Below are positions 7,107 to 18,808 of a DNA stretch of 27,158 nt, in pieces (position 1 is the first letter of the stretch; each line of letters begins with the position of its first letter). The notes under the pieces are model-generated. The model saw only the letters and a list, made by a program, of their open reading frames with translations, did no database searches and was not told the origin of the DNA. Origin of the DNA: a virus; IMG/VR virus record IMGVR_UViG_3300035162_001273, positions 1 to 27,158 of that record. One strand, given 5' to 3'. The position numbers and the translations under genes were made by a program.

Positions 7107-7550
7107 TTAGTTTATTTTTAGTTTATTTAGTACTTTATTAAATCTTCTTTTTGCACACGCTCGGCTTACTCCTATTCGACTTTCTACCCAAGAGGCATTT
7201 AAGTCCATTTCTAGGAAAGCATCTAGCCAGAGTTTATCGGTGTGACTTATATTAGCCTCTTCTATAATATCATTGAGAAGTTTAATATAGTCGTTTTGTG
7301 GCTCAATTGCGAAATCTTTATCGTCTATGTATATCTGAGATTTTTGTTTATTGTGTATCGCTCTGGATTGATTTAGGGCTATAACAAAAATGTAACTTAT
7401 TATTTGCTTCTTAGACGATTTTTTTAATTTGAAGCGGTTTTTGTGTAGTTTTAAAACAACGTCATGAGCCAAATCTTCGTGTTCCCTTTGGCAAATGCTA
7501 CGACTTATTCTCAGAATATCTGGGTAGTATGTCTCTATTAAGTCGTTCAT
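7107..7550 (-). CDS. Sigma-70-like (ECF-type) transcription factor
   Basis: This 147-aa protein has the two-part layout of a minimal sigma factor. A region-2-like segment (EDLAHDVVLKLHKNRF, ~25-40, then helices to ~65) is followed by a variable linker and a C-terminal helix-turn-helix (~118-142: SWVESRIGVSRACAKRRFNK). It is shorter than most ECF factors (~170-190 aa). It lies directly downstream of a strong terminator and upstream of the modification, packaging and tail genes, so it could switch host RNA polymerase to late promoters. It could also be an HTH regulator that has lost polymerase binding. Confidence 0.6.
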   Translation of the reverse strand: MNDLIETYYPDILRISRSICQREHEDLAHDVVLKLHKNRFKLKKSSKKQIISYIFVIALNQSRAIHNKQKSQIYIDDKDFAIEPQNDYIKLLNDIIEEANISHTDKLWLDAFLEMDLNASWVESRIGVSRACAKRRFNKVLNKLKIN

Positions 7551-13722: not shown

Positions 13723-14748
13723 TTAAAATGGTGCTTTGTTTTCTGTATAAAAATCTTTATTTAAAGGCAGAGGCTTTTCAACTCTTACGTCTGTTTTTAT
13801 ATTTTCTCCGCTTAAAGGGTCAGACCACTCTAGCGGCTCTGCGAATGCTTCTTTTCTAACGTAAATTCTAAAGCCTAAAAGATTCGCTTTCGCCTCTAAG
13901 ATAATAGGATTTTCTTTAAAACTTGGTTTTCCTCCAGTTTTTGTGGTTTTTACTTTGTTTATATGCCACTCGGTCTTCATCCACTCGGTAGGGTGTTGAG
14001 TGTATCTGTGTATCGTAATAAACTGGTCGCAACGGTTAACAAATTTACCGCCTCCCTCTATGTCAGCAGATAGCAAAGGGATAGAATAGTTTTCGTAATT
14101 ATGTCCTCTTGGATGGGTTTTTCTTAGTGCTTCAGTTACTCCATGCGCCAGAATATAAGTAGAGATAAAATTCTTTTTGCACCATATTCGAAGCTCAGAC
14201 ATTACTTGATAGTCGTATTCGTGCCTATTTCCAGTTATTGACTCGTCACGCCCTAAAGAGTTGTAAGGGTCAATTACTAAAGCGTTAGGCTTAAAGTCGT
14301 GAGTAGCAAATAGATTCTCGGTAACGCTTAGTATGTCTCTATGGTTCATTAATCGCTTATTTTCTTCGAAGAACTTATCCGAATCAAAGAATTTAAAATG
14401 TTCGTTTAGCCAGTAGTTAGCATAGTTAAAATCTAAATCGCTTAAATCTATAACTTTTTTAGCGGTGTATAAAGATATAATGTCGTCTTTAATTGAGCCT
14501 ATGTCATTCTCACTTGAAAATATAGCAAACTTTAAGTCGTGTTTAATAGCTAGGCAGGTAAAATAGTAAAGTATAGATAAAGTTTTACCGACGTTTGCAT
14601 GACCAGCCATTACAACTAAATCGGTATTCTTAAATCTTAAATACTCGTCTATTGGTGCGTCTATTCCTAAACCTAGTTTAAAAGTACCGTTTCTTATTTT
14701 TTCTAAGTGGTTAAGTCCAGCGGTTTCTTTGTATATCATTTTAGTCAA
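13723..14748 (-). CDS. DnaB/RecA-like replicative helicase (single ATPase domain)
   Basis: The 341-aa protein has a RecA-type ATPase core: Walker A GHANVGKT (49-56), a FAIFSSEND strand (75-82) characteristic of DnaB-type helicases, Walker B ALVIDPYN (156-163), a sensor-like YILAHGVTEALRK (198-210) and a C-terminal KTTKTG stretch like the DnaB arginine/lysine-finger region. The N-terminal DnaB domain is missing, as in many phage helicases. It overlaps the initiator/loader gene by 8 nt, forming a two-gene replication module. Confidence 0.8.
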   Translation of the reverse strand: MTKMIYKETAGLNHLEKIRNGTFKLGLGIDAPIDEYLRFKNTDLVVMAGHANVGKTLSILYYFTCLAIKHDLKFAIFSSENDIGSIKDDIISLYTAKKVIDLSDLDFNYANYWLNEHFKFFDSDKFFEENKRLMNHRDILSVTENLFATHDFKPNALVIDPYNSLGRDESITGNRHEYDYQVMSELRIWCKKNFISTYILAHGVTEALRKTHPRGHNYENYSIPLLSADIEGGGKFVNRCDQFITIHRYTQHPTEWMKTEWHINKVKTTKTGGKPSFKENPIILEAKANLLGFRIYVRKEAFAEPLEWSDPLSGENIKTDVRVEKPLPLNKDFYTENKAPF

Positions 14749-15400
14749 ATAGTTTTGTAAAAGGTATGTAAGATTTTTTTGGTCTTTTAGATTCTTTTTT
14801 TAGCCAGTTCTTAGCGGTTAAATATAGCGATTTATATTTTTTGTTCTGAGCAAAGTTTTCAATACTATCTAAAATTCTGTCAATTGTCTCTTTTTCATAT
14901 TCAACTTCTAACTTTTTAAAGTCGTTCATTGATAATTTTAAATGCAAAAACTCACGATATAAATTCTCTTTACTTTCTTTTCTATTTACTTTCTTTTCTT
15001 TTGCTTCGCTATAGGCTTCGGGTAAGGCTTCGGGTAAGGCTTTGCTATAGGCTTTGGGTAAGGCTTTCAATAGGCTTGTTTTTGGTTTGCTTTTTTTACC
15101 TCCACTTCTACCGCCTCTAGCTAACTTGAGCCTAGCTTCGCAACTAGGAATAAATAAAATATTTTCCTTAATTTCGATTAGCTTTAAATCGGTTAAAGTT
15201 GCTAAAATTGTTTCCAGTTCGTCTTGAGTAGTCGCAAACTTTCTAGCCCATAGTCTATAATTTATTTCGGTTGTATTATCGTTCATCATAGACATATCTA
15301 TTAACTCTCGATATAGCCCCCTTTCAATTAATGTTAATTCGAATACTGCGTCACTATTTCCCCAATCTTTAGGATACCACGTGTAACCAAGTTTAGCCAT
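14741..15400 (-). CDS. Phage replication initiator/helicase loader (DUF1376-like plus DnaD-like)
   Basis: The N-terminus (KLGYTWYPKDWGNSDAVFEL, then ERGLYRELIDMSM, residues 1-40) is a DUF1376-like winged helix typical of phage replication proteins. The C-terminus (~170-205: KYKSLYLTAKNWLKKE) resembles the DnaD/YxxxIxxW-type helicase-loading domain. Between them is a repeat linker of six four-residue units (LLKA LPKA YSKA LPEA LPEA YSEA) encoded by 12-bp tandem repeats at 15002-15073. The layout recalls lambda O, in which the origin iterons lie between the two protein domains. The helicase gene follows with an 8-nt overlap. Confidence 0.75.
   Translation of the reverse strand: MAKLGYTWYPKDWGNSDAVFELTLIERGLYRELIDMSMMNDNTTEINYRLWARKFATTQDELETILATLTDLKLIEIKENILFIPSCEARLKLARGGRSGGKKSKPKTSLLKALPKAYSKALPEALPEAYSEAKEKKVNRKESKENLYREFLHLKLSMNDFKKLEVEYEKETIDRILDSIENFAQNKKYKSLYLTAKNWLKKESKRPKKSYIPFTKLFD
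15002..15073. repeat. Six 12-bp tandem repeats inside the initiator gene (candidate origin iterons)
   Basis: On the plus strand six units are read: TGCTTCGCTATA, GGCTTCGGGTAA twice, GGCTTTGCTATA, GGCTTTGGGTAA and GGCTTTCAATAG. They encode tetrapeptides of the form [K/E]A preceded by LP or YS. Pyrimidine-rich A/T-rich DNA lies next to them (14960-15001). Confidence 0.75.
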
Positions 15401-15416
15401 AATATTATTTTTTTAA

Positions 15417-15498
15417 GTGGCAAAAGCCCTACTCCCCTAGCCACGTCGAAAGGCGTTAGAGAGTAGAGCTTTTAATAATTTTCTTGTAAGTTCGACGT
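15417..15498 (-). ncRNA. Structured 5' leader of the replication operon (hairpin with pseudoknot potential)
   Basis: Plus-strand arms 15422-15434 and 15461-15473 pair over 12 of 13 positions (AAAAGC-CTACTC with GAGTAG-GCTTTT). The loop contains ACGTCGAA (15443-15450), which is perfectly complementary to TTCGACGT at 15491-15498. The latter falls near the 5' end of the transcript expected from the promoter at 15518. A second, competing 5-bp pairing joins 15417-15421 with 15440-15444. This could be a regulatory RNA switch, an autogenous binding site or an origin structure. It has not been matched to any known RNA family. Confidence 0.55.
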
Positions 15499-15510
15499 TA
15501 CTTAGAATTG

Positions 15511-15518
15511 CAAATATA
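15511..15518 (-). promoter_or_regulatory. -7 element TATATTTG, candidate promoter of the leftward early operon
   Basis: On the minus strand this is an exact TAnnTTTG match in the 198-bp divergent gap. It would start transcription near 15504, giving a leader of about 104 nt before the initiator gene. No TTTG -33 box is obvious; GTTAAAATAATA lies upstream. Confidence 0.5.
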
Positions 15519-15561
15519 ACGTATTATTTTAACTTATAATAAATTAATAAGATTATTTTCG

Positions 15562-15569
15562 TATATTTA
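15562..15569 (+). promoter_or_regulatory. Near-consensus -7 element TATATTTA, candidate promoter of the lysis operon
   Basis: On the plus strand, TATATTTA matches seven of eight bases of the TATATTTG form, 30 nt before the ATG of the phosphoesterase gene and divergent from the leftward promoter. Confidence 0.35.
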
Positions 15570-15598
15570 AAAAAAAGAGTATTAATTAATTTTCTAAG

Positions 15599-16759
15599 AT
15601 GGATAAAAATAGGGTGCAAGAACTTTATAAGGAGTTAAACAACCTTACTCAAGTAGCGAAAAAGATAGCCGAAGAAGAGGGTATAACTTATACCGATTCA
15701 ATGCGGCGAAACGTGTCTCGTATTATGTCTAAAATAAACAACAGAGGTATATTTGAAGAGTGCGAAGACGTAGGAATAGACCCTAACCAAGTAAAGCATT
15801 ATTGGTATAAAGGAAAGCACTACTCTATTAACGTAAAAGGCGAAGATAATAGCAAAGAGTTAAACTTTGATAGTGTTATTTCTGAGTGTATGGAAAGCTA
15901 TACGCCTATTGATAAGTCTTATTTATCAGAGGACGACGAGGTTATAGACCGCTTAGTCTGGACCGACGTTCATACTGGAATGGATGCCTCTCGTAAAGGT
16001 CTCGCTCTTTACCCTACCGAATGGAATAGCGATATGTTATTCGATAATATTCGTTTAATGGCTGAGTTTGTTTTAAAGAATAAACAAAGTAATATACTTT
16101 ACATTGACGAACTAGGAGACTTTATGGACGGTTGGGACGGAGAAACAACTAGGAAAGGTCATAAGCTACCGCAGAATATGACTAACGAGGAGTCTTTTGA
16201 TAACGGTTTAAAGGGTAAGATATTACTTATAGATTTGCTTTGTAATCATTTCGATAAGATTGTTTGTAATAATATTTGCGAAGATAACCACGCTGGTGCA
16301 TTTGGCTACGTTGTTAACTCAGCTTTTAAACAAATAGTCGACCATAAATACACAAACGTCGAGGTAATAAACCATAAAAAGTTTATCAACTTCTATCAGA
16401 TTAAAAACAGAATGATTGTTTTAACTCATGGCAAAGACGCACGAAATTTGCGCTTTGGTTTTAAGCCTCATTTAGATAATAAGCAAATAGAAAAGATAGA
16501 CCAGTTCTTTAAGAACTACGATATTTATAAGAAGTGCAAATATATAACCTTTTCAAAAGGAGATAGTCACCAAGCACTTTTCGACTTTGCAAGTTCTGAC
16601 GACTTCGACTATAATAACTATCCAGCTTTTAGCCCGTCTAGTGAATGGGTGCAAACTAATTTTAAACGAGGTCGTCGTGGCTTCGTATTAGAACACATTA
16701 AAGACAACGGCTCTAGAGTTGTTTATGAAACGTATTTTTTTGAAAAACTTAAATATTAA
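15599..16759 (+). CDS. HTH-domain calcineurin-like metallophosphoesterase
   Basis: Residues ~5-45 look like a helix-turn-helix (LTQVAKKIAEEEGI, then SMRRNVSRIM). The rest has the ordered metal-ligand motifs of calcineurin-type phosphoesterases: TDVHTG (D123, H125), LGDFMDGW (D175, D178), CEDNHAG (N230, H231 in place of GNH[D/E]), THGKD (H277) and KGDSHQ (H324). It could act on DNA ends, nucleotides or a signalling molecule; the HTH suggests nucleic acid. It heads the rightward operon and is followed 2 bp later by the amidase gene, so it is expressed with the lysis genes. Confidence 0.75.
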   Translation: MDKNRVQELYKELNNLTQVAKKIAEEEGITYTDSMRRNVSRIMSKINNRGIFEECEDVGIDPNQVKHYWYKGKHYSINVKGEDNSKELNFDSVISECMESYTPIDKSYLSEDDEVIDRLVWTDVHTGMDASRKGLALYPTEWNSDMLFDNIRLMAEFVLKNKQSNILYIDELGDFMDGWDGETTRKGHKLPQNMTNEESFDNGLKGKILLIDLLCNHFDKIVCNNICEDNHAGAFGYVVNSAFKQIVDHKYTNVEVINHKKFINFYQIKNRMIVLTHGKDARNLRFGFKPHLDNKQIEKIDQFFKNYDIYKKCKYITFSKGDSHQALFDFASSDDFDYNNYPAFSPSSEWVQTNFKRGRRGFVLEHIKDNGSRVVYETYFFEKLKY

Positions 16760-17658: not shown

Positions 17659-17666
17659 TATATTTG
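17659..17666 (+). promoter_or_regulatory. -7 element TATATTTG upstream of a terminator (candidate short-RNA promoter)
   Basis: This is an exact TAnnTTTG match 8 nt after the holin stop. Transcription would begin near 17673 and meet the strong terminator at 17710-17745. No TTTG -33 element is seen. Confidence 0.4.
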
Positions 17667-17672
17667 CATTGC

Positions 17673-17745
17673 GTAATCTGATTCATTGCGCTTTTCATAA
17701 CTATTTTTTCCTCTCTACGATTGATTTTGTAGGGAGGTTTTTTTT
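17673..17745 (+). ncRNA. Possible ~73-nt small RNA between holin and DnaA-like genes
   Basis: A -7 match just upstream and a strong intrinsic terminator at the end define a short non-coding unit. It contains CATTGCG twice (17667-17673 and 17684-17690). Alternatively the stretch is only the 3' end of the lysis mRNA. Confidence 0.3.
17710..17745 (+). terminator. Rho-independent terminator of the lysis operon
   Basis: CCTCTCTAC (17710-17718) and GTAGGGAGG (17729-17737) form a 9-bp stem with one G-T pair around a 10-nt loop, followed by eight T. The end of the T-run supplies the TTTG -33 box of the next promoter. Confidence 0.9.
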
Positions 17746-17772
17746 GTTAATTACTTTTAATTCTTATATTTG
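17743..17772 (+). promoter_or_regulatory. Bacteroidota promoter TTTG-N18-TATATTTG
   Basis: TTTG (17743-17746) and TATATTTG (17765-17772) are separated by 18 nt, matching both consensus elements. Transcription would start near 17779, about 8 nt before the ATG of the DnaA-like gene, giving a very short leader. Confidence 0.75.
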
Positions 17773-17786
17773 TTCAAAAGTAAATT

Positions 17787-18209
17787 ATGACAAAAAGTAA
17801 AATGATTCAAAACGTAGTCGCAGAACTACAAAAAAAAGAAGATATAAGCGAGGTAATTGTCTTAGGTTTTATTAATGAGTATAAAGCATTTTACGAAATG
17901 AAAAACGAATACGGCGAGGCTTTATTCACTCGAATTGATTTTGAAGACAGAGTTAAAAGAGTTTTAGGTTTGCAAGGAGTTGACCTATCCGAAAAAAATA
18001 GAGAGCCAGACAGAGTTTTAGCCCGTGCAATTATGTATCTTTATTATAGGTCTAAAGGTTTAACCCTTACGAAAATTGGAGATAAGTATAACTGTTGTCA
18101 CGCTACCGTCTTGCATGGTATGCAAATGGTTAAAAATCTACAAGAGGTTAAAGACAAAGTCCTTATTAATTTACTATCAGAGGACGAAACTATTTTAGAT
18201 GGACTATAA
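17787..18209 (+). CDS. DnaA domain-IV-like DNA-binding protein
   Basis: The 140-aa protein has an N-terminal helical part (1-75) and a C-terminal segment EPDRVLARAIMYLYYRSKGL, then LTKIGDKYNCCHATVLHGM (about 83-125). This matches DnaA domain IV: the basic helix, the L..IG...  turn and the H.TV..... recognition helix. No AAA+ ATPase domain is present. It could bind DnaA-box-like sites in phage DNA to start or regulate replication or transcription, or block host DnaA. It has its own strong promoter and overlaps the next gene by 11 nt. Confidence 0.7.
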   Translation: MTKSKMIQNVVAELQKKEDISEVIVLGFINEYKAFYEMKNEYGEALFTRIDFEDRVKRVLGLQGVDLSEKNREPDRVLARAIMYLYYRSKGLTLTKIGDKYNCCHATVLHGMQMVKNLQEVKDKVLINLLSEDETILDGL

Positions 18210-18546: not shown

Positions 18547-18808
18547 CCCTCTCTAAAGAAGTAAGCCTAACGTCGAACCGCTCTATTAAAATAGTGAGTT
18601 TTTGATTTGATTCTATTAACGACTTTTGATTTTCTTCAAACTCTTTTATACGAATTTCGGAGAATTTTCTATCTCTTTTGTAAAGCGAAAGCAATAAGAA
18701 AATAATAAGCGACAATAACCCAGCAACTATTGACGCTGGAAACCAACCGCCGTTATCGCTTACTTGATTTATTAACTCTATCCCTTCTGTTACGTGTTCT
18801 GGTTTCAT
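18539..18808 (-). CDS. Single-TM coiled-coil protein, holin/BhlA-like
   Basis: The 89-aa protein has a short outside part, one membrane segment (about 24-43, SIVAGLLSLIIFLLLSLYKR) and a cytoplasmic coiled coil (48-86, FEENQKSLIESNQKLTILIE). Its shape and size match BhlA/UviB-like holin-related proteins, often found at the end of late operons. It is the last gene of the rightmost leftward block and converges on the nuclease-like gene with an 8-nt overlap. Whether it is a true second holin, an antiholin or a tail-associated factor is open. Confidence 0.6.
   Translation of the reverse strand: MKPEHVTEGIELINQVSDNGGWFPASIVAGLLSLIIFLLLSLYKRDRKFSEIRIKEFEENQKSLIESNQKLTILIERFDVRLTSLERVN

Follow-up and report, generated by a model that had tools for sequence, protein, structure and literature searches.

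Kissing loops and pseudoknots control replication genes in plasmids: in ColIb-P9 repZ and in attenuators of the pT181 type, the pairing of a loop picks the outcome, and the output is either a terminator or the start region of the gene. In bacteriophage T4, the gene 32 operator is an autogenous, gene-specific pseudoknot located near the 5′ end of the mRNA, from which an unstructured A/U-rich run leads to the AUG. A further phage system is putL: about 70 nt long, it forms two stem-loops immediately after an early phage promoter, and its effect extends over 10 kb and needs no phage protein (PMC9378689).

Here we describe a leader RNA found in a viral genome, IMG/VR record IMGVR_UViG_3300035162_001273, analyzed as a stretch of 27,158 bases (hereafter, the window). 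In setting, its closest counterpart is the HK022 putRNA of lambdoid phages: both are leaders of early operons that follow the promoter, contain two hairpins in ~70–85 nt, are present more than once per genome and precede a long operon. Like put, the window carries two stem-loops (P1 and P2) directly downstream of an early phage promoter, in this case a predicted box at 15511–15518. However, putRNA as judged by its published fold is made of two stem-loops with a minor-groove triplex and does not show loop–loop kissing (PMC9378689). Furthermore, the kissing core described here varies; relatives repeat it at start codons or have U-runs after it. In logic, the closest counterparts are ColIb-P9 repZ and the pT181-type attenuators, which are likewise replication-gene leaders where loop pairing decides between outcomes. 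Unlike them, the leader has both kissing partners in one molecule and serves many unrelated genes, and no antisense RNA was found. The T4 gene 32 operator shares with it the pseudoknot near the 5′ end and the A/U-rich run to the AUG, and differs in that our leader is common to unrelated genes.

Results

Genomic context of the leader

The gene behind the leader encodes a replisome organizer whose ATG lies at 15400 and, according to the list of open reading frames, heads a long co-directional gene run on the minus strand. Genes for a DNA methylase, NinG, an Erf-type annealing protein, an exonuclease and terminase are also part of the run. A candidate sigma factor gene is found in it as well (7107–7550, minus strand; weak match to phage RNA polymerase sigma factor, phrog_1740, E 7e-5). 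The features of the region are the following:

14741–15400, minus strand: replisome organizer, 219 aa (PHROG 13246, E 7e-8), first gene behind the leader
13723–14748, minus strand: DnaB-like helicase, second gene of the run that starts with the replisome organizer
15599–16759, plus strand: divergent upstream gene, matching phage DNA repair exonucleases (PHROG 704)
15511–15518, minus strand: predicted Bacteroidota −7 promoter element TATATTTG, a sequence match to the Flavobacterium primary sigma consensus

The consensus of F. johnsoniae and F. psychrophilum is TANNTTTG, with G at −5 (PMC6847099, PMC9723704). Because the G of TATATTTG was placed at −5 as in F. johnsoniae, transcription is predicted to start around 15506, just before P1. 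A first-pass annotation had proposed a structured leader RNA adjoining the promoter, a proposal that a transcription start downstream of 15491 would contradict; the predicted start is upstream of that position. An exact TAnnTTTG is also present 5–12 nt ahead of AAGTAACG in 26 of 31 relatives. As read from the sequence, the element would thus be a leader placed between a predicted promoter box, with its predicted start, and the replisome organizer gene.

Fold of the leader RNA

Two kinds of repeat are apparent in the DNA: an inverted repeat of 13 nt with one mismatch (92%; 15422–15434/15461–15473) and an 8-nt stretch of 100% complementarity between ACGTCGAA (15443–15450) and TTCGACGT (15491–15498). 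As minus-strand RNA, they give rise to the following elements, named from the 5′ end:

15487–15504, minus strand: P1, 5′-terminal hairpin UAAGU(AACGUCGA)ACUUA, which holds kissing strand A1 (from folding)
15491–15498, minus strand: A1, kissing strand ACGUCGAA, 8-nt perfect complement of B
15458–15474, minus strand: P2a 5′ arm, 17-bp helix with 15421–15437
15452–15454, minus strand: P2b 5′ arm GCC, pairing with GGC at 15440–15442 (from folding)
15443–15450, minus strand: B, loop strand UUCGACGU, which kisses A1 (from complementarity and six-core conservation)
15440–15442, minus strand: P2b 3′ arm GGC (from folding)
15421–15437, minus strand: P2a 3′ arm, which ends in GGGCUUUUG and has no long U-run here (from folding and covariation)
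15417–15421, minus strand: GCCAC, one side of a competitor pairing judged not functional (in plus-strand letters, GTGGC at 15417–15421 with GCCAC at 15440–15444)

The long stem had been described as 12 pairs out of 13. It actually comprises 17 pairs since mismatches of the plus strand become G-U pairs on the minus strand, and P2 of the minus-strand RNA is completed by a GCC/GGC cap and a nine-base loop. The perfect 8-nt match between this loop and a sequence near the predicted 5′ end was likewise confirmed; it is a pairing of kissing loops and hence a pseudoknot, with a predicted duplex energy of about −10 kcal/mol for A1:B. P1 starts a few bases from the predicted 5′ end of the transcript. 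The minimum free energy of the minus-strand RNA is −29.4 kcal/mol (z = −4.6), and only 1 of 200 dinucleotide shuffles folded equally well; RNA of the plus strand folds less well (z = −2.4). P2 is followed in the window by GGGCUUUUGCC, with UUUU only and then GCC, and no terminator was called in 14800–16200. It is nearly certain that minus-strand positions 15418–15506 specify a 5′ leader RNA that acts in cis and is made of P1, an A-rich linker and P2, the capped loop of which kisses the P1 loop through 8 bp.

The first-pass annotation also contained a competing 5-bp pairing that would open the long stem. Such a pairing (GCCAC/GUGGC) can be drawn; however, forcing it costs 14 kcal/mol (−18.9 vs. 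−33.1), and among the 31 leaders described below it is found only in the window and in its near-twin L001 (= L256). We do not consider it a credible alternative state.

Conservation of the kissing core

When relatives of the replisome organizer (in IMG/VR) and of the divergent gene were inspected, the same layout was found in other letters upstream of the first genes of operons: TAnnTTTG, a small hairpin, a linker, a long hairpin whose loop is complementary to that of the first hairpin, and an ATG. To avoid circularity, places were collected blind to the pseudoknot, as combinations of promoter box, hairpin and ATG, and each loop was scored against its own and against swapped 5′ regions. Matches of loops with their own 5′ region that scored at least 18 were detected in 21 of 107 nonredundant places, compared with 2.8 predicted by the swaps. 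A covariance model (A5, R2) was trained, with the pseudoknot left out, on the window plus three relatives; at E values up to 5, it retrieved mostly places where the descriptor had found kissing before. The promoter-blind descriptor was noisy below a score of ~68. In four window-class sequences, the kissing core changes jointly on both sides, and ten pairs of the structure are changed on both sides.

A search pattern was then used that fixed only AAGTAACG, GCC, CGTGGCTA and two single letters, leaving the kissing core and P2a free. It yielded 44 viral contigs with 31 distinct leaders, and all 31 keep the eight A1:B pairs (8/8), while swapped cores give 6.0/8. Six kissing cores are represented: ACGACCAA, ACGTCGAA, ACGGTCAA, ACGTAGGA, ACGTGGAA and ACGGCTAA. 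P2a varies freely, yet only six cores occur among the 31 leaders, and two leaders in one contig differ in their core; this looks like a limited specificity set.

Certain constancies must be read with the pattern in mind. The letters AAGUAACG are common to the window class but were demanded by the search, and the invariance of GCC and GGC in P2b reflects selection of the matches. The letters of P1 were also demanded, and support for P1 comes from folding and from covariation in a sister class rather than from the 31-leader set. In that sister class, pairs of P1 and of the P2b cap (helix 4) do covary.

The replication protein had no relative in the annotated phage collection. Among host chromosomes, represented by 299 genomes of the family of an Aestuariibaculum genome, the only match was weak (34 bits) and corresponded to an ordinary hairpin without kissing.

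Covariation and strand of selection

Covariation in P2 was measured on a model-fitted alignment of 32 distinct rows, which leans towards its model. Double-sided changes are present in 16 of the 24 model pairs, and the covariation value is 0.538, compared with 0.203 upon shuffling and at most 0.14 upon sliding. Double-sided cells in P2 number 136 (45 in shuffles). Compensatory changes in homologues, the check named by the first-pass annotation, are thus abundant. The cells of P2a contain 90 G-U pairs and 2 A-C pairs (75 and 0, respectively, at internal positions flanked by pairs). RNA of the minus strand is therefore what is selected; a constraint acting on DNA is unlikely because it would yield A-C about as often as G-U.

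A second copy of the kissing strand at the start codon

In 14 of the 31 window-class leaders, the gene that follows has a copy of A1, hereafter A2, at its start codon (7/8 or 8/8 identity; 8 exact). A2 typically appears as [ACGNNNNA]ATG and matches the core of its own leader, as illustrated by AACGTCGAATG (L240), AACGGCTAATG (L259), AACGGTCAATG (L271) and AACGACCAAAATG (L278). In 20,000 permutations of the cores, the maxima were 11 copies and 7 exact copies (14 and 8 observed), and A2 spans five of the six cores. Two loci, L241 and L281, have the same leader ahead of unrelated first genes, and A2 is found in both. A2 repeats A1, and loop B can therefore pair either with A1 or with the start region. 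The idea of mutually exclusive pairings, not supported in its original 5-bp version, reappears in a different form in these relatives. The window itself does not carry A2, its best start-region match being 5/8, and in the other (non-window) leader classes A2 was not found beyond chance.

The stretch UAACG is common to A1 and A2, and part of it lies outside the pairing with B. For B to pair with A2 while P2 remains intact, about 10–13 nt must span about 18 bp. Structure close to the start codon is known to lower initiation in Flavobacterium (PMC6847099).

Two additional possibilities were considered and discarded. A2 and the U-run described below are not strict alternatives: a tendency was seen at one threshold (p = 0.03) and not at others. 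Targets of the loop in trans were not supported either: 32 exact copies of A1 were counted in addition to each leader's own A1 and A2, 31 of which are the leaders' own B on the other strand, leaving about one compared with 4.5 expected. The window contains ACGTCGAA 4 times (0.89 expected): as A1, as B, and at 18570 and 26510.

Genes behind the leader and sister classes

The genes found behind the leader class are diverse: replisome organizers, initiators of the Lin1244 and DUF6291 types, primase-helicases, a DEAD helicase, NUMOD4-HNH endonucleases and small proteins of unknown function. Because the leader stands ahead of unrelated genes, it is unlikely to be an autogenous repressor site of the replication operon alone, as had been suggested at first. 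A second leader, from another class and with another core, is present in some contigs (L249, with ACGTCGAA and GGTCTGAC; L258, L270 and L243). Together, the second leaders and the unrelated downstream genes point to a modular leader of early genes and speak against the replication protein as sole autogenous regulator.

Looser relatives are found at the start of other early operons, and a U-run of at least four U's follows the long hairpin in 70–85% of the best-scoring places. Several structural variants were also seen:

(i). In L130, L177, L092, L217 and L173, the internal loop between P2a and P2b reads AGUA/GAA, a bulged-G (sarcin-ricin) module, and in L072, L076 and L055 it resembles tandem G-A pairs (UGA/UGA). 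Judging from their sequences, these motifs suggest real tertiary modules in sister classes.

(ii). Upstream of the replisome organizer in L009, L022 and L035, a variant leader has the order 1-2-1′-2′, a pseudoknot without the P1 hairpin (in L009: AAGTGAGG, AAGTAGTT, CCTCACTT, AACTACTT).

(iii). A small hairpin of the form GGUUAUCUUAAAACC recurs between P2 and the ATG in L173, L180, L181, L177, L195, L246 and L262. The genes behind it encode a set of ~75-aa proteins (MEKTKIVF / MANVKLVF / MAKFELKF).

(iv). The plus strand of the window contains, at 17659–17789, a second promoter box, a hairpin (CCTCTCTAC/GTAGGGAGG) and a T8 run before a DnaA_C-like gene at 17787. Its kissing match is of 4 bp only (AATC/GATT), and the element is perhaps a plain attenuator or a decayed leader.

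Comparison with known RNA families

The impression that no named RNA family fits the leader was borne out. Rfam 15 gave no match in the window, where the best sub-threshold scores were far below the cut-offs, and none at the leaders of 27 related loci; a tRNA and two DUF805b RNAs were its only matches elsewhere in those loci. DUF805b RNA (RF02914) is a small cis-regulatory motif found in two leader-bearing contigs (L271:4576–4608 and L278:577–611); it is a 35-nt motif located away from the leaders, differs from them in sequence and fold, and does not match the window or any leader. Searches of the literature found no description of the element. A metabolite riboswitch was discarded: core and stems vary freely across classes, and the downstream genes are for replication and mobile nucleases. 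The element should be treated as a new, previously uncatalogued family of cis-acting phage leader RNA.

Discussion

The kissing-hairpin leader is a real, conserved RNA and not a chance match, as seen in its fold, its compensatory changes, the strand under selection, its placement and its reuse before unrelated early genes. What the leader does is a matter of interpretation. We give about an even chance to the view that it is a cis-acting 5′ RNA that switches the operon behind it on and off. A1, which is made first, would capture loop B as B leaves the polymerase; this kissed state would be the ON state, where the kiss with the 5′ hairpin leaves the start codon free. If A1 were unavailable, B or the free P2 hairpin would act on a downstream expression signal, and the operon would be OFF. 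The OFF output would differ among leaders: where A2 is present, B would mask the start codon, and where P2 carries a U-run, P2 would be an intrinsic terminator. Both signals are seen in relatives. Points against the switch are the lack of A2 in the other leader classes, the threshold-dependent nature of the tendency of A2 and the U-run to replace one another, the short span open to B:A2 pairing with P2 intact, and the bases that A1 and A2 share outside their pairing with B. The window has no A2 and only UUUU after P2; with neither signal strong, a protein or RNA polymerase may instead recognize its kissed fold. In the case of the window, an on/off switch is only slightly more likely than recognition by a protein or an action on RNA polymerase in the manner of put.

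Overall, put-like action is rather unlikely. The kissed RNA would remain bound to RNA polymerase and render the enzyme resistant to pauses and terminators throughout the long replication operon. A leader of ~85 nt with two hairpins from the 5′ end, found in early operons with many co-directional genes behind it and more than once in some contigs, is what one would expect, and the window, without U-run and A2, fits too. However, kissing loops are unlike the separate stem-loops with a triplex found in put, many relatives have a terminator-like U-run at the leader itself, and a copy at the start codon is not needed by put.

Repression of translation by a phage- or host-encoded RNA-binding protein, acting on all leader-bearing genes in the manner of the T4 gene 32 operator, seems doubtful to us. 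A binding site might be seen in the fixed letters AAGUAACG, GCC and CGUGGCUA that surround the variable core and in the pseudoknot near the 5′ end with A/U-rich sequence ahead of the AUG. The fixed letters, however, were demanded by the search pattern, no candidate protein was identified, and simple autogenous control by the product of the operon is at odds with the unrelated downstream genes.

That the kissed rod shields the end of the transcript from decay, without switching, is improbable. Such a stabilizer would explain a very stable fold that begins a few bases from the predicted start and serves many different genes, but it leaves unexplained the start-codon copies of A1, the U-runs and the exact loop match in every leader.

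Far less probable is a DNA operator in which a repressor half-site is present three times, as A1, B and A2, and the RNA fold is a mere by-product. The arrangement is suggestive, as B is an exact inverted copy of A1, A2 is a direct copy, all lie between promoter and start codon, and core types are few, as in immunity operators. Nevertheless, the excess of G-U over A-C in the arms of P2 (90 vs. 2) is a property that only RNA of the minus strand shows and largely refutes this explanation, and the kissing strands sit in hairpin loops. Chance complementarity in an A/T-rich spacer can be dismissed: a single 8-nt match is weak evidence on its own, but 31 of 31 relatives keep the match with six cores, and P2 covaries.

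Returning to the on/off switch, an attractive speculation, which we hold only tentatively, is that it belongs to a phage-wide system in Bacteroidota phages. A kissing-hairpin leader with a pairing code of its own would open early transcripts, and its loop would toggle between the 5′ hairpin (ON) and an identical start-codon sequence or a terminator outcome (OFF), so that one fold would provide separately addressable switches for each operon. Regulation in Bacteroidota phages is poorly known, and their early genes have to be timed in a phylum without Shine-Dalgarno control. The leader is compact, widespread and hitherto unnamed; its covariation is clean, its 5′ end can be predicted, and its pairing rules, with six cores and single compensatory swaps, can be tested.
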